From a virus: 44,383 bases of DNA. The notes below the pieces were generated by a model. It had not been told where the DNA came from, ran no database searches, and saw nothing but the letters and a program-made list of their open reading frames with translations. This document shows, piece after piece, positions 1 to 44,383 of the stretch. The stretch is from the IMG/VR virus record IMGVR_UViG_3300009408_000010, positions 1 through 44,383 of that record; one strand, given 5' to 3'. How positions within the stretch are numbered: position 1 is the first letter of the stretch; every line of letters begins with the position of its first letter. The translations under genes and the position numbers were made by a program.

Positions 1-140
1 CCACGTCACCACGTCACCACGTCACCACGTCACCACGTCACCACGTCACCACGTCACCACGTCACCACGTCACCACGTCACCACGTCACCACGTCACCAC
101 GTCACCACGTCACCACGTCACCACGTCACCACGTCACCAC
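1..140. repeat. Left terminal tandem array, 8-bp unit CCACGTCA
   Basis: Seventeen perfect head-to-tail copies of CCACGTCA plus a final CCAC, running from the first base of the window. The right end (44271-44383) carries the same unit in the same orientation, and both arrays are bordered by CCACGCGGCGGC. Direct rather than inverted orientation fits a circle or terminally redundant molecule opened within the array. The true copy number cannot be known from a contig that ends inside the repeat. Confidence 0.95.
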
Positions 141-167
141 GCGGCGGCTTCATGACGTGGTGACGTG
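130..167. repeat. 12-bp inverted repeat capping the left array
   Basis: Bases 130-141 (CACGTCACCACG) are perfectly complemented by 156-167 (CGTGGTGACGTG), with a 14-nt GC-rich loop. The right arm is therefore about one and a half array units in inverted orientation just outside the array. It could form a cruciform, or bind the same protein as the array from the other side. Function unknown. Confidence 0.8.
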
Positions 168-5281: not shown

Positions 5282-5514
5282 TTCAAGCTCCCCTGATTTC
5301 CATCTAATTCCCAAGGCATATCACTCCCACAACGAACACATGTCTTGCGAAAAAGTGTCCGCAAGAGAATGAGTTTGTCGTAACCGCAATGCCAGCATGT
5401 TTTCGTTGATTCTTTCCACATGAGTGGGATCTTTACGATCTCACCATCACGTGTTTTTCGGTATTCGTGAGTCTCAGATTTACTCACGAACTCAGACGTG
5501 TCGCGCAGATTCAT
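5278..5514 (-). CDS. Small zinc-ribbon protein
   Basis: A 78-residue protein with a charged N-terminal half and a C-terminal zinc ribbon CWHCGYDK ... CVRCGSDMPW (about residues 39-65), two CxxC pairs about 16 residues apart. Such ribbons bind zinc and often mediate contact with nucleic acid or with polymerase subunits. The start overlaps the upstream stop (ATG at 5514, stop ending 5511) and the end overlaps the next gene, so it is a coupled member of the operon. No family is recognised and the substrate is unknown. Confidence 0.75.
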   Translation of the reverse strand: MNLRDTSEFVSKSETHEYRKTRDGEIVKIPLMWKESTKTCWHCGYDKLILLRTLFRKTCVRCGSDMPWELDGNQGSLK

Positions 5515-5828
5515 GGCTGCACCCCGATAATAGCGGTCGCCGCCATAACCCCGATGACAGTGGTCGCCACCGCCGCCAGAACCCCGATTAGAGTTGCGGC
5601 AACCAATGCAGTGAAATACATACTTGGAGTTAAACGTGCGTTTAACTCCAAGTTCTCCACTGTGTGTCTTAATTCTGCAAGCGTCATGGTTGCCGCAACC
5701 TTGCTGACGTGCATTGTGATTAGTGCTTCGTATTGAGATCGAATATACTCATCCTCACCACTAATCTGCGACATTTGTTCACCCACTACAAGTTTTGTGT
5801 ATTTTTCTCGAACCGTCTCTTCTTTCAT
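5511..5828 (-). CDS. Small membrane-anchored protein
   Basis: A 105-residue protein. Residues 1-68 are hydrophilic and helical (MKEETVREKYTKLVVGEQ, then a possible coiled coil with AELRHTVENLELNAR). Residues about 71-100 form a strongly hydrophobic segment rich in Ala, Val, Thr and Ile (FTALVAATLIGVLAAV) that could be one long or two short membrane passes at the C-terminus. The start is set at 5828 because the primase gene stops at 5830-5832, one base earlier. A longer frame to 5939 lies inside the primase gene. C-terminal anchoring would place the helical part in the cytoplasm. Function not recognised. Confidence 0.65.
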   Translation of the reverse strand: MKEETVREKYTKLVVGEQMSQISGEDEYIRSQYEALITMHVSKVAATMTLAELRHTVENLELNARLTPSMYFTALVAATLIGVLAAVATTVIGVMAATAIIGVQP

Positions 5829-12821: not shown

Positions 12822-13610
12822 ATGAAGATTGAATTTGATGCAAATGAAAACCCAAACGTGTACCGCGCAATCGCTGCAATGTGCAATGAATTGGGTCGCC
12901 ATGTCGATGACGAAACTCCTGTCGTCATCGAGACACCTGTCGTCACTGAGACTCCCGCACCTGTCGTCACTGAGACACCTGTCGTCACTGAAACACCTGT
13001 CGTCACTGAAACACCTGTCGTCACTGAAACACCTGTCGTCACTGAAACACCTGTCGATTCGGCAGGGTTTAAATGGAACGCGGAAGTTTGCTCCTCAACG
13101 ATGAGCAAAAAGAAAGATGGCACTTGGAAGCGCAAGCAGGGTGTTGAGCCTAGTGAATACCTGCGTATGCTGAAGTCTCAGTTGCCCACGGTCACTGAGA
13201 CTCCCGCACCTGTCGTCACTGAGACTCCCGTCGTCACTGAGACTCCCGTCGTCACTGAGACTCCCTCACCTGTCGTCACTGAGACTCCCTCACCTGTCGT
13301 CACTGAGACTCCCTCACCTGTCGTCACTGAGACTCCCGCACCTGTCGTCACTGAGACTCCCGCACCCGTCGTCACTGAGACTCCCGCACCTGTCGTCACT
13401 GAGACTTCAGCACCTGTCGTCACTGAGACTCCCGTCGCTATGGACTGGCCTTCAATCCTGAAAATCGGTGCAGCCGCACACAAGGCAGGTTACACACGGG
13501 ATCAGATCAATGGATGGTGTAAAGGGTGTAACCCACCCTGTGAATCGTTCAGTCACTTGATCAACCGACAAGACCTGTGGGAATTCTTTAAAGAGGCGTT
13601 CAAGCAATGA
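12822..13610 (+). CDS. Repeat-rich phage replication-operon protein (PVVTET repeats)
   Basis: A 262-residue protein. A short N-terminal region (about 1-28) is followed by Pro-Val-Val-Thr-Glu-Thr repeats. An insert at about 82-120 holds FKWNAEVCSS and KKKDGTWKRKQG; this matches the short motif (W-x-x-x-x-H/C-x-x-S...K-x-DGTW-K-x-K/R-x-G) seen in many phage proteins encoded near DUF2800 genes. A second repeat block follows, then a C-terminal helical domain ending LWEFFKEAFKQ. The repeats are probably flexible acidic linkers joining two small domains; their near-identical DNA suggests copy number changes easily. First gene of the rightward operon. Function of the motif domain unknown. Confidence 0.8.
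   Translation: MKIEFDANENPNVYRAIAAMCNELGRHVDDETPVVIETPVVTETPAPVVTETPVVTETPVVTETPVVTETPVVTETPVDSAGFKWNAEVCSSTMSKKKDGTWKRKQGVEPSEYLRMLKSQLPTVTETPAPVVTETPVVTETPVVTETPSPVVTETPSPVVTETPSPVVTETPAPVVTETPAPVVTETPAPVVTETSAPVVTETPVAMDWPSILKIGAAAHKAGYTRDQINGWCKGCNPPCESFSHLINRQDLWEFFKEAFKQ
12912..13052 (+). repeat. Coding tandem repeat, block 1 (18-bp unit)
   Basis: About seven units, mostly of the 18-bp form ACACCTGTCGTCACTGAA, one of them extended by CCCGCA to 24 bp, encoding PVVTET. Units are multiples of 3 bp, so gain or loss keeps the frame. Confidence 0.9.
13189..13436 (+). repeat. Coding tandem repeat, block 2 (24-bp and 18-bp units)
   Basis: About eleven units, mainly the 24-bp form encoding PAPVVTET or PSPVVTET. 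It is the same repeat family as block 1, separated from it by the non-repeat domain of about 45 residues. Confidence 0.9.
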
Positions 13611-15106: not shown

Positions 15107-15966
15107 TCGTATTTCCAATGGGTCGCATGGTAGGCGGTGATCTCTATACCCCGAACGATACTAAATATGACAGCGACGAGAAACTTGCTGGAGGTCGCGT
15201 TGAGTACATCTGCGTTTGTGCCATCCCGAAGCAGGGTGAGAAGAACTGGTGGGAGACAGTGTGGGGGGCTGAAATTAACACCATCGCATCCAATTCGTTC
15301 ATCAATGGTGAAACTGCGCGTCTCGATTTCAGTTGGAAAATCGTGGATGGTGATTCCGCGATCCCCAACAAGCGCAATGTCACACCAGCATCAAAAGAAG
15401 GTTTCGCTGGTAACTGGGTGATCACTTTCAAAAGTGGCTTTCCTCCGAAACTGGTAAACGAAAACGGCAGCAAGCTACTTACTGCCGAAGGCGCTATCAA
15501 AAGCGGCTACTTCATTCAAGTCATGGGAGACCCAACACCCAATAATCTGAAAAGCGTCCCACAAACACCTGGTATGTATCAGAACTTTAGCGCCGTGTCG
15601 TTACAGGCTCTTGGTAATCTGATTGTAGGTACCGAGCCTGTCGATACTGCTGGTGCTGGTTTTGGTGGTGCGACTCTACCTGTTGGCGCAACTGCCGTAC
15701 CGGAAGGTTTTGGTGGCGCAACTGCCGCCACAGAAGGTTTTGGTACCGCACCGGCTGTGGCTCCCGCACCGGCTGTGGCTCCCGCACCGGCTGTGGCTCC
15801 CGCACCGGCTGTGGCTCCCGCACCGGCTGTGGCTCCCGCACCGGCTGTGGCTCCCGCACCGGCTGTGGCTCCCGCACCGGCTGTGGCTCCCGCACCGGCT
15901 GTGGCTCCCGCACCGGCTGTGGCTCCCGCACCGGCTGTGTTTGATCCGACAGCAGACGTTCAGTAA
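15103..15966 (+). CDS. DUF2815-like putative ssDNA-binding protein with Ala-Pro-Val repeat tail
   Basis: A 287-residue protein. The first about 160 residues are beta-rich ([40 protein letters not shown]), and with [11 protein letters not shown] resemble phage DUF2815 proteins, thought to be OB-fold ssDNA-binding proteins. A Gly-rich linker (AGFGGATLP) leads into about eleven APAPAV repeats and the acidic end FDPTADVQ. An acidic tip on a flexible tail is typical of SSB proteins that recruit partners. CGGAG lies eight bases before the ATG, which overlaps the 36-aa gene. Confidence 0.8.
15748..15939 (+). repeat. Coding tandem repeat, 18-bp unit
   Basis: Ten identical copies of GCACCGGCTGTGGCTCCC plus a partial eleventh, encoding the AP-rich tail of the DUF2815-like protein. 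Perfect identity, including third codon positions, suggests recent slippage or conversion. Confidence 0.95.
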
Positions 15967-22100: not shown

Positions 22101-25100
22101 CTTGAGTTTCGTTTCACCGAGTATTTCTTTTACAAGCGTCGCGTCGAGCCGTTGGCCAGTTTCTTTCAGTGTGGTGCGAATTGAAAACACAGGTTCGCTG
22201 ATGAGTGTTTTCTTGACTTCCAGTTCGATCAGTCGGCGTTCATCGTTCCATTTTTTACGACGCGCCACGGTGAGTTGTTTCGTAAGCTTCTCTTCGGCGG
22301 TAAATGCTGCACGTTCTTTGCGTTTGGCTATCAGTTTCTCATAGCTTTTGAACGTTGTGTCGCTCATTCCAGCGCGATCCCCTGATTTGAAATACTGCGC
22401 GTACTCAGGGTTCGTTTCGACCTCTGCGATCACTGCGTCAACGGCGAGCATTCGGTCAAACACTCCCTTGATCTCAGGTGTAAAATGTGCGCGTGGACGG
22501 CGTGGCATGAACTTCGCCAACCATTTAGCAAACTGGCGAAACATGGACTTGAGCGCGGGACTGGGTGCTTCACCTATTTTTGTATAAACCTCAAATGTCT
22601 CAGCGAATTTTTCGTGGTGTTCGGTTGTGATGTCTTCAAGTTTTCCGCTCTTAATACCCATCCATTTAAGTGTTTTTTTATGATCTTCGGTAACACCAAA
22701 CTCAACGGCTGCTTGGCGTTCAAACTCTAAGAACAGGTGTGCGAATTCATGTATTGACGTGTTTCGCGTTGCTATTCCGTCGATGAACCCAATCGCTCTA
22801 GCATGTTCGCCTGTGCTGTTGTCAGTGCGGAATGCCATGAACCCTTTCAGCGTGGGTGTAAGGGATTCACGCTTTTGCAGCGCCTTCTGGTCGGGGCTGA
22901 GTTTCGCATACTTGATGTCAAGCTGCTTCTGAATTCGATCCTCAATGACTGGATCACCTTTCGGTAAAACCCGAACATTGATGCGCTTGTCCACCTCTTC
23001 TGGTGTAAGGTTCAGCAGTTCACTCTTGGTTTCAACAAACGCTGCATACATTCGTGCCACGTTTGTTGCGACCGTTTTGTTGTACACCTCAGACGACATA
23101 ATCTCGTTCGTGACACGCGCATGGATTTTCTTCAACGAGGCGACGTGGGCTTTCTTTTTGACTACGTTTTCTGCCAACTCTTTCAGATTCGTTTCATCCA
23201 AACGCTGTGTGAGTTCATGTCTGGTAAACCCAGAGTCACGCAGTTTAATGTGATCACGCAGACCGTTTAACACGGGTTCGTTTCCAACCACTTCTTTAAT
23301 AAAAGTTTCAGCGTTGATGGTTGCCCCACCTGACTCACTCAACACCCTGGCGATTGCGTCAGGTATGGTTACACCCAAGTTCTCAAGTTCCTGAATGCCT
23401 TCCTCAGTGATGTAAACCTCTTGTGATAGTGAGTCCGTAAACTGCTTGAATTCCGTAGGCGCTTCATTGTGGATCGTCATGTCAGACGTTGCGTTAATCA
23501 CCGCGTCGATTCGTTGTAGATCGTCTACAGCCCGAAACCGTGACTCAACGGCACGAACCTTGGCGTTATGATACGCCCGTGCCGGAGTGCTGACAGCTGT
23601 CACCGAGCCTGATGTAACTGAGGATGAAACCAGAGTGAACGCCTGACGCTTCGCTTGTATCGCTACAGCTTCTTGAAACGTCTCTGCGTTCGCCAATTCA
23701 ACATCCAGACCGAAACCCAGATCAGAAACCGTGTTCAACGCTGTATCCACCTGCTCACCCAGTGTATCGGTGAGGATGAATTTTTTAACAGCGTTGGTAT
23801 TACCGCTGAGAACGTCATTGAAATATTTCAGCGGTAATACCTCCGTGGCGTAGGATGACAACATTGAGAGTGATGCGCGATTCGCAGACCGTGCTGGCGA
23901 CTCACCAGCCTTTCGTGATTTACCGTATTGATCCAAACCCGCAAGCCCTGTAAGCACAGGGAGCGCACCAAACGGTGCTGAAACGGCGAGATCGGCAGTG
24001 CTGAGAATACCCGCGTTCAATGCTTCACCCAGAAATGTGAGGTCTCTAGGGGTTAGTGATTGAATCTTACGGTCAGATTCGTTGAGCGTTTTTAGAATCT
24101 CTTTGCCGAAAGCATTCTGCGCTGCGACTGACTTCTCTTTCGTCCATGTGGGGTTGCTGGCCATCGCCGCTGCTTTTGAGGACTCAAAATCTAAGAACAA
24201 CGACGGGTCTATATCGGAGTGGGCGGTCGAGTCATTGGCGGCCTGAAACGCTATTTTACCGCGTTTGATCCACGACTCGACCCACCGCTCACTCAGGTTC
24301 TTGAAGTCACGGGTCGGGTCGAGTTCCCACCACGCACGACCATCCGCGCCAACACCTGTAATGTCTTCGCCTAATTTAAAGGCGTTCATGAACGACTCAT
24401 TTACATCTGAGAAAAATTGAGTTGCCTTCGCGCTCCCAGTATCAACGCCACCGGATAACTCAGACACCAGAGAACTCACCCGCGCCGAAACGTCGTCGAG
24501 TGCTTGAGTTGCCTTCGCGCTCCCAGTATCAACGCCACCGGATAACTCAGACACCAATGAACTCACCCGCGCCGAAACGTCATCGAGTGCTTGAGTTGCC
24601 TTCGCGCTCCCAGTATCAACGCTGCCTGATAACTCAGACACCAATGAACTCACCCGCGCCGAAACGTCATCGAGTGCTTGAGTTGCCTTCGCGCTCCCAG
24701 TATCAACGCTGCCTGATAACTCAGACACCAATGAACTCACCCGCGCCGAAACGTCAGGTTTGTTAACCGTAGCAGCACCTGACGTTGAATCAACGCCAGT
24801 AAACGCCTTTTCGATGGATTGCATCTGTACCACATCTGGTGCCACGACAGCGGCCACATGTGGTGATTTAATCATGGCGGCAAGCTTGGGCGTGGATGCG
24901 ACATCTACCTCTTGTGTTTTGGCTTTAGCCTCAAAAGATGCAACGTCTTGTTCGACCAGATCCGTAGGCAGTGAAACGGCCTCGCTCACTCTGGACACCC
25001 TTCGCGCCTTTTCACTGTCACCCTTGAACCCGTCACCGAGCAGCGACTTGGCAATGTAATCACGCCCTTCGTTTGGGTCAATGTTGTCTGAGTCAATCAT

Positions 25101-34074: not shown

Positions 34075-35081
34075 GACTTGAACGCCGACTGCGTTTTGAT
34101 TAACTGGACGTACCGTTTACGGTCTTCGGCGGTGTACGACTTGGTTCCCATCTTATCCTTGATTGATTGAATCTCAGTGGCCATCGCTTGTGCCGGATTG
34201 TTTGAGTTCGGCACCACGGTCGCAGCGGGGTTAATCTTACGACCCATGTCTGCTAACCACACCAGCACTTCTGGTGAGTTTGCCAGCAGACTGCCGTCGG
34301 CCAGAGTAGCTTGGGAAAACCCGTCACGCACCGATTCAGGTAGTTGACTGATCATGTTATTCACGATGTTTACGTTTGTGGCTAACTCCCCTCCCCATGT
34401 TTCCTGCAAAACCTGAGTCGAGTTCTGCATATCAGTTGTGTGACGGGTTGCTTGCACCTGTGCTTGCACCTGACGTTGTGATTCAACCTGACCCAAGATC
34501 GCATCCAGTGCAGGTTTGCTGACGTTATTTTCCAGTGCAGCTTTGCCAACACTGTCGAACAGCGCCTTATCATTATCGCCCACGGCGACATCGGCAAAAT
34601 ACCCGTCAACATTTAATGGAACACTGTTTGCTGTGCGCCACTCTGAGAGCTGTTCGGCACTTGGGTTCTCTGGCAGCCCGTTAGACAGTTCACCGCTGCG
34701 AATCTGACGCTGGCCAGCAATGAACGACTTCACCAACGAACCGATGTCGCCGTGGCGATTCAGCATGTTCAACGCCTTGTCATCACCTGTCAGATTCGCA
34801 GCAGCAATCAACTGATCCCTCCAATCATCCGGCATTGATTTGTAGAACGCTGCTGCTGGTGCCGCTGGTGGCGTTACGTCTGCTGCTGCCGCTGCTGCTG
34901 CTGGTGCCGCTGGTGCCGCTGCTGCTGCTGGTGCCGCTGGTGCCGCTGCTGCCGCTGGTGCTGCTGGTGCTGCTGGTGCCGCTGGTGGCGTTACGTCTGC
35001 TGCTGCCGCTGCTGCTGCTGGTGCCGCTGGTGGCGTTACGTCTGCTGCTGGTGGAACAGTACCGAGGACTGTATTAGACAT
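34071..35081 (-). CDS. Scaffolding protein with Ala/Pro-rich N-terminus
   Basis: A 336-residue protein. Residues 1-80 are low complexity (ADVTPPAAPAAAAAA repeats). A conserved-looking part follows: FYKSMPDDWRDQLIAAANL, LNRHGDIGSLVKSFIAGQ and WRTANSVPLNVDGY, as in podophage scaffold or head-assembly proteins. The C-terminus has SYTAEDRKRYVQLIKTQSA, a basic helical segment suited to capsid binding. Position between portal and capsid matches T7 gene 9. AAAGGA precedes the ATG. The repeats may vary in number without loss of function. Confidence 0.8.
   Translation of the reverse strand: MSNTVLGTVPPAADVTPPAAPAAAAAAADVTPPAAPAAPAAPAAAAAPAAPAAAAAPAAPAAAAAAADVTPPAAPAAAFYKSMPDDWRDQLIAAANLTGDDKALNMLNRHGDIGSLVKSFIAGQRQIRSGELSNGLPENPSAEQLSEWRTANSVPLNVDGYFADVAVGDNDKALFDSVGKAALENNVSKPALDAILGQVESQRQVQAQVQATRHTTDMQNSTQVLQETWGGELATNVNIVNNMISQLPESVRDGFSQATLADGSLLANSPEVLVWLADMGRKINPAATVVPNSNNPAQAMATEIQSIKDKMGTKSYTAEDRKRYVQLIKTQSAFKS
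34848..35050 (-). repeat. Ala/Pro-coding low-complexity repeat in the scaffold gene
   Basis: A mosaic of GCTGCTGCTGGTGCCGCTGGT units interspersed with three copies of GGCGTTACGTCTGCTGCTG. All indel steps are multiples of 3, so the frame is preserved. It encodes a disordered, probably spacer-like N-terminus. Confidence 0.85.
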
Positions 35082-40657: not shown

Positions 40658-40881
40658 AGAACAGCCGCCACGCCCTCGGTGCTAAACGAGGACACGGCGC
40701 GAACCGCGCAGCGATCTGTAACATAGTCAACTTCAGCGGCGGAAAACCACCCACCGCGTGGTAACGTGCGAGTTTTCAACCAATTTTTGACCCGTGCTAA
40801 CACGCGGTGCGCGTATTTTTTGGCTATCAATTTATCTGCTAATAGTTTTCTGATGGTGCGGACGGCGGTATATGCGTTCAT
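40633..40881 (-). CDS. Small basic protein, last gene of the early region
   Basis: An 82-residue protein with a basic helical first half (MNAYTAVRTIRKLLADKLIA, then HRVLARVKNWLKTRTL) and a less polar C-terminus (STEGVAAVLLIGAVRM) that runs into the repeat block. It has its own operator-bearing promoter 33 bp upstream. No clear ribosome site or known family. DNA binding is possible from composition only; the last 8 residues may not be conserved, since they lie in repeat DNA. Confidence 0.5.
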   Translation of the reverse strand: MNAYTAVRTIRKLLADKLIAKKYAHRVLARVKNWLKTRTLPRGGWFSAAEVDYVTDRCAVRAVSSFSTEGVAAVLLIGAVRM

Positions 40882-40913: not shown

Positions 40914-40941
40914 ATTATACACCGTAAAAATTACGGCGCAA
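40914..40941 (-). promoter_or_regulatory. Early promoter P1 with spacer palindrome
   Basis: Minus strand: TTGCGC (40936-40941), 16-bp spacer, TATAAT (40914-40919). The perfect palindrome CCGTAA-AAA-TTACGG (40922-40936) fills the spacer. It drives the gene starting at 40881. A protein bound here would block polymerase directly. Confidence 0.8.
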
Positions 40942-40949
40942 GGTATTTT

Positions 40950-41309
40950 TTACGGCAACGATTTTTTAAACGTCTCGGAATCTGACCGCACCAGATCGTC
41001 AAAAACGCCATCCCAATCTATGTAATCATAAATCCACGACGGGGCGGTATCGTAACCCTCAAAAATCCCCGCCAGATCTATATTTTCATAAACCCATGAT
41101 GGCACCTCCTCACCATCCCGCACCTGCTCCCAATCTATGGGGTCATAAATACAGGAGGGGGTGGCATCATCATCAAAAACGCCATCCCAATCTATGTAAT
41201 CATAAATCCACGACGGGGCGTTTTTATAACCGTGATTCTCAATATAGGCGCGAGCGCAAACGGCGGCTGTGCCGACCAGACCCGTTTTCAGGTTTTTAAA
41301 TTTATCCAT
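40950..41309 (-). CDS. Amplified ArdA-motif protein (four tandem copies), candidate DNA mimic
   Basis: A 119-residue acidic protein (about 25 Asp/Glu against 9 Lys/Arg). The N-terminus MDKFKNLKTGLVGTAA is shared with the two ArdA-like proteins nearby. The rest consists of four copies of the ArdA C-terminal motif: PSWIYDYIDWDGVFDD, PSCIYDPIDWEQVRDG, PSWVYENIDLAGIFEG and PSWIYDYIDWDGVFDD again. The first and last copies are identical over 48 bp (40999-41046 and 41173-41220). ArdA proteins imitate B-DNA to inhibit type I restriction enzymes; a repeat of only the terminal domain motif would make a short acidic rod. Second gene of the P2 operon. Function inferred. Confidence 0.7.
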   Translation of the reverse strand: MDKFKNLKTGLVGTAAVCARAYIENHGYKNAPSWIYDYIDWDGVFDDDATPSCIYDPIDWEQVRDGEEVPSWVYENIDLAGIFEGYDTAPSWIYDYIDWDGVFDDLVRSDSETFKKSLP

Positions 41310-41362
41310 TTTATTTACTCTCTCTATTGTTGGTGCCGCATCAACCGACGCGGCTGGGGGTG

Positions 41363-41923
41363 TTACTTTACGTCGTCGATTTTAACCACCACCACGGCGC
41401 GAAAATTACCCTGCGCCGTAATGAGCAAATTACGGCTGCGAATTCGGTAAAATTTCATTTGAGTGACGCGGGGGGTGAGGCCAGCCGCGTGGAGACTGAT
41501 CCCCTGTGCAATCTGCTGCATGTGGTCACAATCAAAACCTACCCCGTCGCTGTCGATCTGTTGCGGCTGGTGGCCAACGGCCGGAAAAAAATCAATGTAG
41601 TCAACGTATTTTCCGCCGACAGGTTTGCACAGAATGTCTGTCGTATTTGCGCCAACCGCCACCACGTCGCCGCTCAGATCAGCGAAAAACTCAGCGCCGC
41701 GCCGCCGTTGTGCCGCTGTTGCTGATTTAATGATTCGCTTGACATCATCGTAACTGAGGATAAACCCCTCTTCGCGGCGTTCTCCCGTCTGGATTGCGTG
41801 GCATCTGTTGCCGTCAGTGCAAACGATGTCCCCGTTCTCAGCAAAAAATACACCGTTTAGCTGGTGGCGTGCGTTATCGCGGGGCATACACAGCGCCACC
41901 GCTCCTAGGTCTCTGATTAGCAT
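41363..41923 (-). CDS. Minimal beta-sliding-clamp-like protein
   Basis: A 186-residue protein. ARHQLNGVFFAENGDIVC and TDGNRCHAIQ match the clamp signature (R-x-x-L-N-G-V-x-x-E ... A-T-D-G-H-R), followed by FILSYDDVKRIIKSA, then YVDYIDFFPAV and VGFDCDHMQQIAQG, which parallel the YPDYxxxxP and F-x-x-x-Y-L-x-D-x-x-K elements of DnaN domains. Bacterial clamps have three such domains in about 366 aa; here only about one and a half fit, so a ring would need more copies. It might tether the phage polymerase or interfere with the host clamp. The start at 41923 is chosen over a long frame to 42091 because the leader matches that of the gene at 42528. Confidence 0.65.
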   Translation of the reverse strand: MLIRDLGAVALCMPRDNARHQLNGVFFAENGDIVCTDGNRCHAIQTGERREEGFILSYDDVKRIIKSATAAQRRRGAEFFADLSGDVVAVGANTTDILCKPVGGKYVDYIDFFPAVGHQPQQIDSDGVGFDCDHMQQIAQGISLHAAGLTPRVTQMKFYRIRSRNLLITAQGNFRAVVVVKIDDVK

Positions 41924-41989
41924 ATTAGTATTACTCTCTGTTGTTGGTGCCGCATCGGTTGATACGGCGGTTAGTGTGTGTAGGCCGCT

Positions 41990-42017
41990 ATTATACACCG
42001 TAATTTTTACGGCGCAA
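41990..42017 (-). promoter_or_regulatory. Early promoter P2 with spacer palindrome
   Basis: Minus strand: TTGCGC (42012-42017), 16-bp spacer, TATAAT (41990-41995), with CCGTAA-AAA-TTACGG on the minus strand (41998-42012). It drives the clamp-like gene and the ArdA-motif gene. Confidence 0.8.
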
Positions 42018-42030
42018 TAGCAAATAAAAA

Positions 42031-42528
42031 TTAGGCATTGTAAAACGCATAGGCGTTGATGATGATCACCCCCGAACCCAGCGCCTCGCACTCGTCCGTT
42101 TTTACCAGATCATCAAAAACGCCCTCCCAGTCTGTGTTATATAACGCCCAGTCGGGTATAGATTCCCCCGAACAATCCTCGATATATGTTTCTGCACATT
42201 CGGCGCGGGTACCCTCAAATATCTCAGCCTCTTGTAGCAGTCTCACCAGTCCGTTACAAGAAGTGCCCTGAAGGTCAACCAGCCACGCAAGCACCTCCAG
42301 TTCTGTATCGCCCAACCCCTCCCAAAGCTCGACCCATAGACGCAGACCCCCAACCGTGGCCACATCCTCACCGCTCCGCTCAATCAGCCGCCACGCCGTC
42401 ACGTCATTTGGTGTGACATCGTCTAGGGTGTGCAGATCAACACAGTCAGAGGCTGATGCTGCTACTGCTGCGAGTAGTTCGGTGGCTGTGCCGACCAGAC
42501 CAGTTTTCAGATTTTTAAATTTAATCAT
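42031..42528 (-). CDS. ArdA-like antirestriction protein, paralogue 1
   Basis: A 165-residue acidic protein. The middle and C-terminal parts follow ArdA: VATVGGLRLWVELWEGLG (as TSIGELNRLWEMVSELP in the Tn916 protein), a helical stretch LEVLAWLVDLQG, then FEGTRAECAETYIEDC and SIPDWALYNTDWEGVFDDL, the counterpart of the A-x-x-Y-x-E-x-x-G...P...Y-x-D-Y-x-A-x-x-R-D-L end. The first ArdA domain (AYNxG) is replaced by MIKFKNLKTGLVGTATELL. ArdA mimics DNA to block type I restriction-modification enzymes. Downstream of the 42839 gene under P3. Close paralogue at 42924-43421. Confidence 0.8.
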   Translation of the reverse strand: MIKFKNLKTGLVGTATELLAAVAASASDCVDLHTLDDVTPNDVTAWRLIERSGEDVATVGGLRLWVELWEGLGDTELEVLAWLVDLQGTSCNGLVRLLQEAEIFEGTRAECAETYIEDCSGESIPDWALYNTDWEGVFDDLVKTDECEALGSGVIIINAYAFYNA

Positions 42529-42581
42529 ATTAGTATTACTCTCTGTTGTTGGTGCCGCATCAGTTGATACGGCGGTTAGTG

Positions 42582-42839
42582 TTACTTACAGGCTACCCAC
42601 GGTAACGATTTTTTCGCCATCCGCACCACGCGGCGGTGTGGATGGCCTGAGTGCACCCACTCTATAACGTCCGCTTGGATCACTGATAGCCCCGTGTGGC
42701 TGTCGAGGACCCGAAACCTAGAGCCGCACCAGATGAGGCTATCGCTGAGACTCAATGCGTGGCAGACCTCCAGCCATGTGCTATATCGGGTGTAATGCGT
42801 GTAGTAATCCCCATCCAGTTTCTCGATTACGTAACTCAT
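42582..42839 (-). CDS. Small hypothetical early protein
   Basis: An 85-residue protein, MSYVIEKLDGDYYTHYTRY at the start, with a hydrophobic middle (WLEVCHALSLSDSLIWCG) and a basic end (HPHRRVVRMAKKSLPW). Its ribosome site is a run of eight G residues (42843-42850 region) that could vary by slippage. It is transcribed from P3 and followed by the ArdA-like paralogue 1. No family recognised. Confidence 0.6.
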   Translation of the reverse strand: MSYVIEKLDGDYYTHYTRYSTWLEVCHALSLSDSLIWCGSRFRVLDSHTGLSVIQADVIEWVHSGHPHRRVVRMAKKSLPWVACK

Positions 42840-42882: not shown

Positions 42883-42910
42883 ATTATACACCGTAATTTT
42901 TACGGCGCAA
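42883..42910 (-). promoter_or_regulatory. Early promoter P3 with spacer palindrome
   Basis: Minus strand: TTGCGC (42905-42910), 16-bp spacer, TATAAT (42883-42888), palindrome at 42891-42905. About 75 bp around it are almost identical to the P2 region, including the 3' ends of the flanking ArdA-like genes. Confidence 0.8.
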
Positions 42911-42923
42911 TAGCAAATAAAAA

Positions 42924-43421
42924 TTAGGCATTGTAAAACTCATAGGCGTTGATGATGATCACCCCTGAGTCCAGCACCTCGCACTCGTCCGAGCGGACCA
43001 AATCATCAAAAACGCCCTCCCAATTTATGTTATGCTGGATCCACGCGGGGACATCGTACCCAAGCAGATCGCTATAGTCGGCGGCACATTCGGCGCGGGT
43101 ACCCTCAAATATTCTCACCTCTCCCAGCCGTCTCACCTCTCCCAGCCCGTTACAAGAGCCGCCCTGGAGGTCGGCCAACCACGCCAACGCCTCCAGCCGT
43201 GTATCATCCAACCCCTCCCAAAGCTCGACCCAAAACCTCAGATCCCCGATAGTGGCCATATCCTCACCGTTACGCTCAATCAGCCGCCACGCCGCCGCGT
43301 CGTTTGGTGTGGCATCGTCTAGGGTGTGCAGATCAACACAGTCAGAGGCTGATGCTGCTGCTGCGAGTAGTTCGGCAGCTGTGCCGACCAAGCCAGTTTC
43401 CAGGTTTTTAAATTTAATCAT
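42924..43421 (-). CDS. ArdA-like antirestriction protein, paralogue 2
   Basis: A 165-residue acidic protein, a full-length paralogue of the gene at 42031. Matching ArdA elements are MATIGDLRFWVELWEGLD, LEALAWLADLQGG, IFEGTRAECAADYSD, and VPAWIQHNINWEGVFDDL, with the end GVIIINAYEFYNA. A short internal duplication (GEVRRLGEVRI) distinguishes it from paralogue 1. Two different versions may target different restriction enzymes, or form heterodimers. It is transcribed alone from P4. Confidence 0.82.
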   Translation of the reverse strand: MIKFKNLETGLVGTAAELLAAAASASDCVDLHTLDDATPNDAAAWRLIERNGEDMATIGDLRFWVELWEGLDDTRLEALAWLADLQGGSCNGLGEVRRLGEVRIFEGTRAECAADYSDLLGYDVPAWIQHNINWEGVFDDLVRSDECEVLDSGVIIINAYEFYNA

Positions 43422-43481: not shown

Positions 43482-43509
43482 AGTATACACCGTAATTTTT
43501 ACGGTGCAA
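43482..43509 (-). promoter_or_regulatory. Early promoter P4 with spacer palindrome
   Basis: Minus strand: TTGCAC (43504-43509), 16-bp spacer, TATACT (43482-43487), palindrome CCGTAA-AAA-TTACGG (minus) at 43490-43504. A slightly different -35 and -10 from P1-P3 may set a different strength. Confidence 0.78.
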
Positions 43510-44136: not shown

Positions 44137-44164
44137 ATTCTACACCGTAACGATTACGGCGCAA
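44137..44164 (-). promoter_or_regulatory. Early promoter P5 with variant spacer palindrome
   Basis: Minus strand: TTGCGC (44159-44164), 16-bp spacer, TAGAAT (44137-44142), palindrome CCGTAA-TCG-TTACGG (minus) at 44145-44159. The three centre bases differ from the other sites while both half-sites are unchanged, which is strong evidence that the half-sites are what matters. Confidence 0.8.
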
Positions 44165-44270
44165 CTACCGTTCATCAGGTTTTTAATACCGTTCAATTCA
44201 CCAGTTCACCACGCGGCTTCGCGCGGCGGCTGCCCTATAAGGAACGCGCGCGAAGCACCACGCGGCGGCA
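44165..44270. other. Junction between early region and right array
   Basis: No gene. GCTTCGCGCG (44216-44225) and CGCGCGAAGC (44247-44256) form an inverted repeat around CCCTATAAGG. CCACGCGGC is repeated at 44209 and 44258, the second as CCACGCGGCGGC directly before the array, mirroring the left border. Confidence 0.55.
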
Positions 44271-44383
44271 CCACGTCACCACGTCACCACGTCACCACGT
44301 CACCACGTCACCACGTCACCACGTCACCACGTCACCACGTCACCACGTCACCACGTCACCACGTCACCACGTCACCACGTCAC
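44271..44383. repeat. Right terminal tandem array, unit CCACGTCA
   Basis: Fourteen perfect CCACGTCA copies and one extra base to the window end, same unit and same strand as 1-140. No variant copies are seen in either array. Confidence 0.95.

Follow-up and report, generated by a model that had tools for sequence, protein, structure and literature searches.

The locus belongs to a 44.4-kb virus record (IMGVR_UViG_3300009408_000010), which was analysed over its full length of 44,383 nucleotides and is called the window here. Beyond the terminase genes lies a block of small minus-strand genes, and one of these, termed rep119, is the subject of this analysis (Table 1). It is a real open reading frame with an ATG start that encodes 119 amino acids, and its product contains 25 acidic residues (D/E) against 9 basic ones (K/R), as the original prediction had counted. 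The protein begins with M[DI]KFKNL[KE]TGLVGTA, an N-terminus that was correctly described as common to rep119 and two neighbours. These neighbours, A165a and A165b, are 77% identical to each other. The gene directly upstream of rep119 encodes a protein with matches to the PHROG families of DNA polymerase processivity factor (E 2e-9) and RusA-like resolvase (E 4e-9). Judged by these matches, its product is possibly a sliding clamp, and the gene is probably co-transcribed with rep119.

Table 1. Coordinates of rep119, its parts and neighbours, candidate regulatory sites and in-frame tandem repeats of the window
Feature	Position	Strand	Remarks
rep119	40950..41309	-	acidic, 119 aa; leader, counterpart of helix 1 of ArdA domain 3, four 16-aa units, short tail
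N-terminal leader MDKFKNLKTGLVGTA	41265..41309	-	common to A165a and A165b
Stretch AVCARAYIENHGY	41226..41264	-	counterpart of ArdA domain-3 helix 1 (HMM alignment)
Repeat copy 1, PSWIYDYIDWDGVFDD	41169..41216	-	
Repeat copy 2, PSCIYDPIDWEQVRDG	41112..41159	-	diverged
Repeat copy 3, PSWVYENIDLAGIFEG	41055..41102	-	diverged
Repeat copy 4, PSWIYDYIDWDGVFDD	40995..41042	-	followed by LVRSDSE (A165b: LVRSDECE)
Gene directly upstream of rep119	41363..41926	-	187-aa product, PHROG matches
A165a	42031..42528	-	165-aa paralogue, ArdA-like C-terminal domain; motif PDWALYNTDWEGVFDD at 42109-42156
A165b	42924..43421	-	165-aa paralogue, ArdA-like C-terminal domain; motif PAWIQHNINWEGVFDD at 43002-43049
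Repeated 5' leader segment (family D5)	41307..41363, 41921-41977, 42526-42582	-	upstream of rep119, of gene 41363-41926 and of A165a
Palindrome CCGTAATTTTTACGG, then TATAAT on the minus strand	41998..42012	.	putative promoter/operator of the rep119-containing unit
Palindrome sites CCGTAAWWWTTACGG	40922-40936, 41998-42012, 42891-42905, 43490-43504, 44145-44159		
In-frame tandem repeat, 18/24 nt	12912-13434		
In-frame tandem repeat, 18 nt	15746-15939		
In-frame tandem repeat, 87 nt	24417-24756		
In-frame tandem repeat, 9/45 nt	34851-35050		
In-frame tandem repeat	5511-5603		

rep119 contains a fourfold tandem repeat. The units start at residues 32, 51, 70, and 90, with spacings of 19, 19, and 20 amino acids (57, 57, and 60 nt), and in the DNA a 63-nt unit recurs at spacings of 60, 57, and 57. 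Self-comparison of the protein gives 16 identities at lags 19 and 58; other lags give 0–8, except for 38 and 39, which correspond to unit lengths added together. The scores with which copies 2, 3, and 4 align to copy 1 are reached in none of 20,000 shuffles of these copies. The motif had been said to occur four times, which holds for the unit but not for the exact motif because copies 2 and 3 have diverged (10/16 and 8/16 residues identical to copy 1, respectively); PSWIYDYIDWDGVFDD is present verbatim only in copies 1 and 4. These two outer copies encode the same protein and differ by a single synonymous change, in codon 15 of the unit, and the 48-nt run of identity that was noticed between them consists of CGCC and the first 44 nt of the unit.

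By its sequence, rep119 is a paralogue of A165a and A165b. The leader DNA of rep119 and A165a has 3 mismatches in 44 nt, and the rep119 leader continues directly into ...VCARAYIENHGYKNAPSWIYDYIDWDGVFDD, which aligns with ...ECAETYIEDCSGESIPDWALYNTDWEGVFDD of A165a. Copies 1 and 4 resemble the C-terminal motif of A165a/b, including the LVRSD after copy 4, and at the DNA level copy 4 and its flank resemble the A165b motif over 64 nt. An hhalign comparison of rep119 with the A165/Vibrio/Mimi alignment gives a probability of 96.9% (E 1.6e-10). The simplest history would be that an A165-like gene was duplicated and lost its body, that the motif segment was amplified, and that copies 1 and 4 were recently equalised. 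The 5' leader segment that is repeated before rep119, the next gene, and A165a fits a duplication of cassettes.

Such a history could also have left a mere by-product, a decaying A165 duplicate that arose by internal deletion and the phage's tendency to in-frame repeats and whose product does little or nothing. The share of tandem repeats is 3.5% in the window and 0.29% in the other viral loci compared; this ratio of about 12-fold is rough because the comparison loci were not chosen to match the phage, but it makes repeat-proneness a serious rival explanation. At least four other genes of the phage carry in-frame arrays, and since these genes are unrelated, the amplification in rep119 is not in itself a sign that a longer mimic was selected for. 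Homologues of rep119 were not found in viral contigs or by tblastn of phages and plasmids, which also speaks for a by-product. Decay is harder to reconcile with an intact reading frame that has kept its ATG start and with the pattern of change. Synonymous change exceeds non-synonymous change both among copies 1–3 (pS 0.50 vs pN 0.25, Fisher p 0.03) and in the leader (p about 0.03), each over few sites, and all four copies keep P, S, Y, I, and D while the third codon positions of P and S vary. A by-product of this kind is regarded as unlikely, though it is the rival that weighs most. The repeat units in the unrelated genes are PVVTETP, APAVAP, a 29-aa unit, AAPAAPAA, and VIGVxAAT.

The Pfam ArdA family (PF07275) matches no protein of the window even at E 10, rep119, A165a, and A165b included. 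Absent from these three proteins are also the domain 1 signature of ArdA, [YV]xGTYxKYNxG..G.W, and the FMFQDYEG stretch, which form invariant columns in viral ArdAs. The connection to ArdA runs instead through indirect lines of evidence, which agree with one another. A tblastn search with A165b leads to a protein of Vibrio phage 1.081.O (E 4e-4; 33% over 82 aa), whose own match to Pfam ArdA, with E 2e-4, narrowly misses the cut-off, and a further relative, on contig L058, has a Pfam ArdA match of E 1.9e-5 that is likewise below the cut-off. When the A165/Vibrio/Mimi profile (A165a/b with the Vibrio and Arthrobacter phage proteins) is aligned by hhalign with a profile of 13 viral ArdAs, the probability is 93.8% (E 1.8e-7) and the match spans domain 3 and part of domain 2 of ArdA; A165a/b alone reach a probability of only 32%. 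A viral ArdA HMM, built from about 30 viral ArdAs with none from the window, ranks rep119, A165a, and A165b first to third among the window's 269 ORF segments. With this narrow HMM, all scored shuffles stay below rep119 and A165a; A165b is not above its shuffles, 9 of 2459 scored ones reaching its value.

Structural modelling of A165b, at modest confidence, points the same way. The AlphaFold2 model has a pLDDT of 54 overall and of about 63–84 for residues 100–158, which follow the order strand-helix-helix-helix-strand-strand. Its best match in the PDB is ArdA (2W82, E 0.55, probability 0.44) and its best match in BFVD is the ArdA of Vibrio phage phi-pp2 (E 5.7e-3, probability 1.00), after which come several antirestriction proteins. 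The alignment fed to the model included ArdA sequences and excluded the Vibrio proteins, and because the ArdA rows bias the model, it is supporting rather than independent evidence. Matches to trehalose synthase in the PDB look like chance, as do the weak hits that rep119 and A165 have in PHROG and NCBIfam. The net charge of rep119 is -13.4 per 100 residues, compared with -13 to -16 in three true viral ArdAs. The proposal that the neighbours are ArdA-like is supported by the profiles, the HMM, and the model, at least for the C-terminal domain of A165a/b, and ancestry of rep119 from ArdA domain 3 is well supported.

The repeated segment can be placed within domain 3. Through the alignment of a viral ArdA with ORF18 of Tn916, the unit corresponds to ORF18 residues 131–146, PASLQNYIDYQAYGRD, in a numbering that agrees with the mutants E122, E123, L127, E129, and L134 (PMC3906837). 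The 5/16 identities between unit and ORF18 are by themselves not significant, so the likeness rests on the chain through the A165 and Vibrio proteins. Before the repeats, AVCARAYIENHGY has the counterparts ECAETYIEDC in A165a and VARYYIEETG in ORF18. The original prediction had named the unit a terminal motif of ArdA; it was right as to domain 3, but the segment is mid-domain (residues 131–146 of 165 in ORF18) and not the end of the protein. By sequence, helix 1 and the P..L...ID[YW] helix pair are present in rep119 and the end strands are absent. The ArdA body is missing, as had been stated, and a piece of the ArdA-like C-terminal domain is multiplied. From the Vibrio proteins, the viral ArdA profile, and the A165b model, rep119 looks like a domain-3 (sArdC-like) derivative in which helix 2–helix 3 was amplified and the end strands were lost. 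Since it has neither domains 1 and 2 nor the final strands, it may not fold as domain 3. Structure prediction of the monomer, which had been put forward as a check, gives an unreliable AlphaFold model (pLDDT 43.7) that is uninformative on the fold.

The position of the unit bears on what rep119 might do. In ORF18 ArdA, Leu134 is at the dimer interface of domain 3; mutants of this domain, to which antimodification is attributed, lose antimodification and mostly keep antirestriction, and the monomeric protein remains active, with antirestriction kept (PMC3906837). One possible role is that of an adaptor, with rep119 binding several A165a/A165b molecules via the domain-3 interface and linking or capping them, without mimicking DNA itself. 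The mapping of the unit to ORF18 131–146, around the interface residue Leu134 (PMC3906837), speaks for such a role, as does the presence, next to rep119, of genes for two paralogues that carry this segment. Monomeric ArdA, however, keeps its antirestriction activity (PMC3906837), so linking by rep119 may not be needed, and an adaptor is considered decidedly improbable.

The closest known systems include ArdA and sArdC. ArdA (PF07275; Tn916 ORF18, PDB 2W82) resembles rep119 in its net acidic charge density and its occurrence in mobile elements and phages, and the two have in common the domain-3 segment P-x-x-[LIV]-x-x-x-[IT]-[DN]-[WY] with the interface helix. ArdA has this segment once, whereas rep119 has 4 copies but neither domains 1 and 2 nor the end strands, and no Pfam match. 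The other is sArdC, a protein of 114 aa with a single C-terminal ArdA domain that shields lambda against restriction by type I systems and reduces modification, as exemplified by ArdA_1576 of Lactococcus cremoris (114 aa) (PMC12548430). Like sArdC, rep119 is short and acidic and goes back to the C-terminal ArdA domain, the rest having been deleted; at 119 aa it is near ArdA_1576 in length, and its C-terminal homology fits sArdC. The two differ in that sArdC is a single domain 3 with no ArdA fragments around it, whereas rep119 has a fourfold internal repeat of partial units, has no terminal strands, and adjoins larger paralogues.

By this analogy, the preferred reading, held tentatively and with slightly less than even confidence, is that rep119 may be an sArdC-type inhibitor of type I systems that acts alone or with A165a/b. 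It would have kept the leader of 15 residues and, from the region resembling ArdA domain 3, the first helix, and would have lost the body and the terminal β-strands, while the helix 2–helix 3 segment, which holds the dimer-interface leucine in ArdA, would have been amplified to four tandem units. The product would be made early as a small inhibitor of the ArdA/sArdC type and would occupy the DNA-binding face of the methyltransferase core of a type I restriction-modification enzyme, either by itself or in a pair formed with A165a/A165b at the domain-3 interface. That rep119 folds, mimics DNA, has this target, is expressed early, and contacts its paralogues is inference only. More doubtful than an adaptor is that a functional anti-restriction rep119 would serve as an acidic mimic tunable to DNA length or as a multivalent scaffold for its paralogues, with a copy number changeable by recombination between units.

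Alternatively, rep119 may have kept the ancestry of ArdA and not its function, as a flexible acidic-aromatic protein whose four short linear motifs bind another host or phage protein, such as a DNA-binding defence or a replication factor. In its favour are the richness of the 19–20-aa units in W, Y, and D, the low predicted order, and the likeness of the neighbouring upstream gene to a polymerase processivity factor. Against it stands the similarity of the conserved hydrophobic positions to the ArdA helix pair, and this reading is the least probable of those considered.

The closest outside sequences to A165a/b are the phrog_15771 proteins of KVP40-like Vibrio phages (1.081.O NVP1081O_148; nt-1 VPFG_00185). 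They are 28–32% identical to A165a/b and have the C-terminal motif and the preceding helix in common with them, but they are 174–175 aa long with a single motif and a different N-terminal part. The present results are evidence for counting these unannotated proteins in the ArdA-like group. Relatives of rep119 with other copy numbers, a search for which had been proposed and which would bear on an extendable mimic, did not emerge as credible matches in viral contigs or, at E 10, by tblastn of phages and plasmids. When two copies of the motif were sought as a DNA pattern, there was one match, antisense to an unrelated ORF, and the match of A165b on contig L008 is antisense to a long ORF resembling the RNA polymerase beta subunit; both were rejected. 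Among relatives of the phage's DNA polymerase and terminase, most of which are fragments, no ArdA/A165 relative is detectable. The sequence of a near-identical strain, L001, stops near window position 40786 and does not quite reach rep119.

Acidic DNA mimics are also known in T7 Ocr and the pentapeptide-repeat proteins MfpA/Qnr, the latter being built from repeats of a 5-aa unit that forms a beta-helix. Their folds and sequences are unrelated to rep119. An ArdA-derived protein with a tandemly amplified interface segment was not found in the open-access literature searched. As for the new architecture that had been proposed, both ArdA derivatives of one domain and DNA mimics built from repeats were known before; the existence of the latter and the fact that sArdC, the C-terminal third of ArdA, acts alone (PMC12548430) reduce the novelty of rep119. 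If functional, rep119 would be an anti-restriction DNA mimic remodelled in nature by deletion of the body and repetition of an interface segment, one step further than in the sArdC proteins of a single domain reported in 2025. It would also make it possible to ask, in a simple setting, how small a set of elements suffices for DNA mimicry.

The minus-strand block contains the palindrome CCGTAAWWWTTACGG in four perfect copies and one with 2 mismatches, compared with 0.2 expected for the window. Three perfect copies are inside a repeated segment with TATAAT on the minus strand, and at 40922-40936, 41998-42012, and 42891-42905 the minus strand runs on into GTGTATAATA. The palindrome is possibly a shared promoter/operator. 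A sigma-70 promoter scan gives none over threshold at these sites, so they are only candidate early promoters.

A perfect octamer array, (CCACGTCA)n, is present in the same orientation at window positions 1–141 and 44269–44383 and makes up a direct terminal repeat of 113 bp. A break of the contig within a single octamer array of a circular or permuted genome is the probable cause, the alternative being true terminal repeats. Contig L023, which carries an ArdA and ends in an octamer array, was rejected as kin of this phage since its octamer differs and it has no terminase match. Among isolated phages, the terminase is nearest to those of Synechococcus phages Yong-M4-211 and Ssp-JY42 (50%), which suggests a possible host group.

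Two observations concern ArdA-like proteins in other phages. The unannotated phrog_15771 proteins (L003:2261-2788, L004:1297-1821) are encoded directly upstream of a DNA methylase gene. At L058:3869-4288, a 139-aa phage protein keeps mainly the C-terminal ArdA part and is a candidate for a viral sArdC-like protein.
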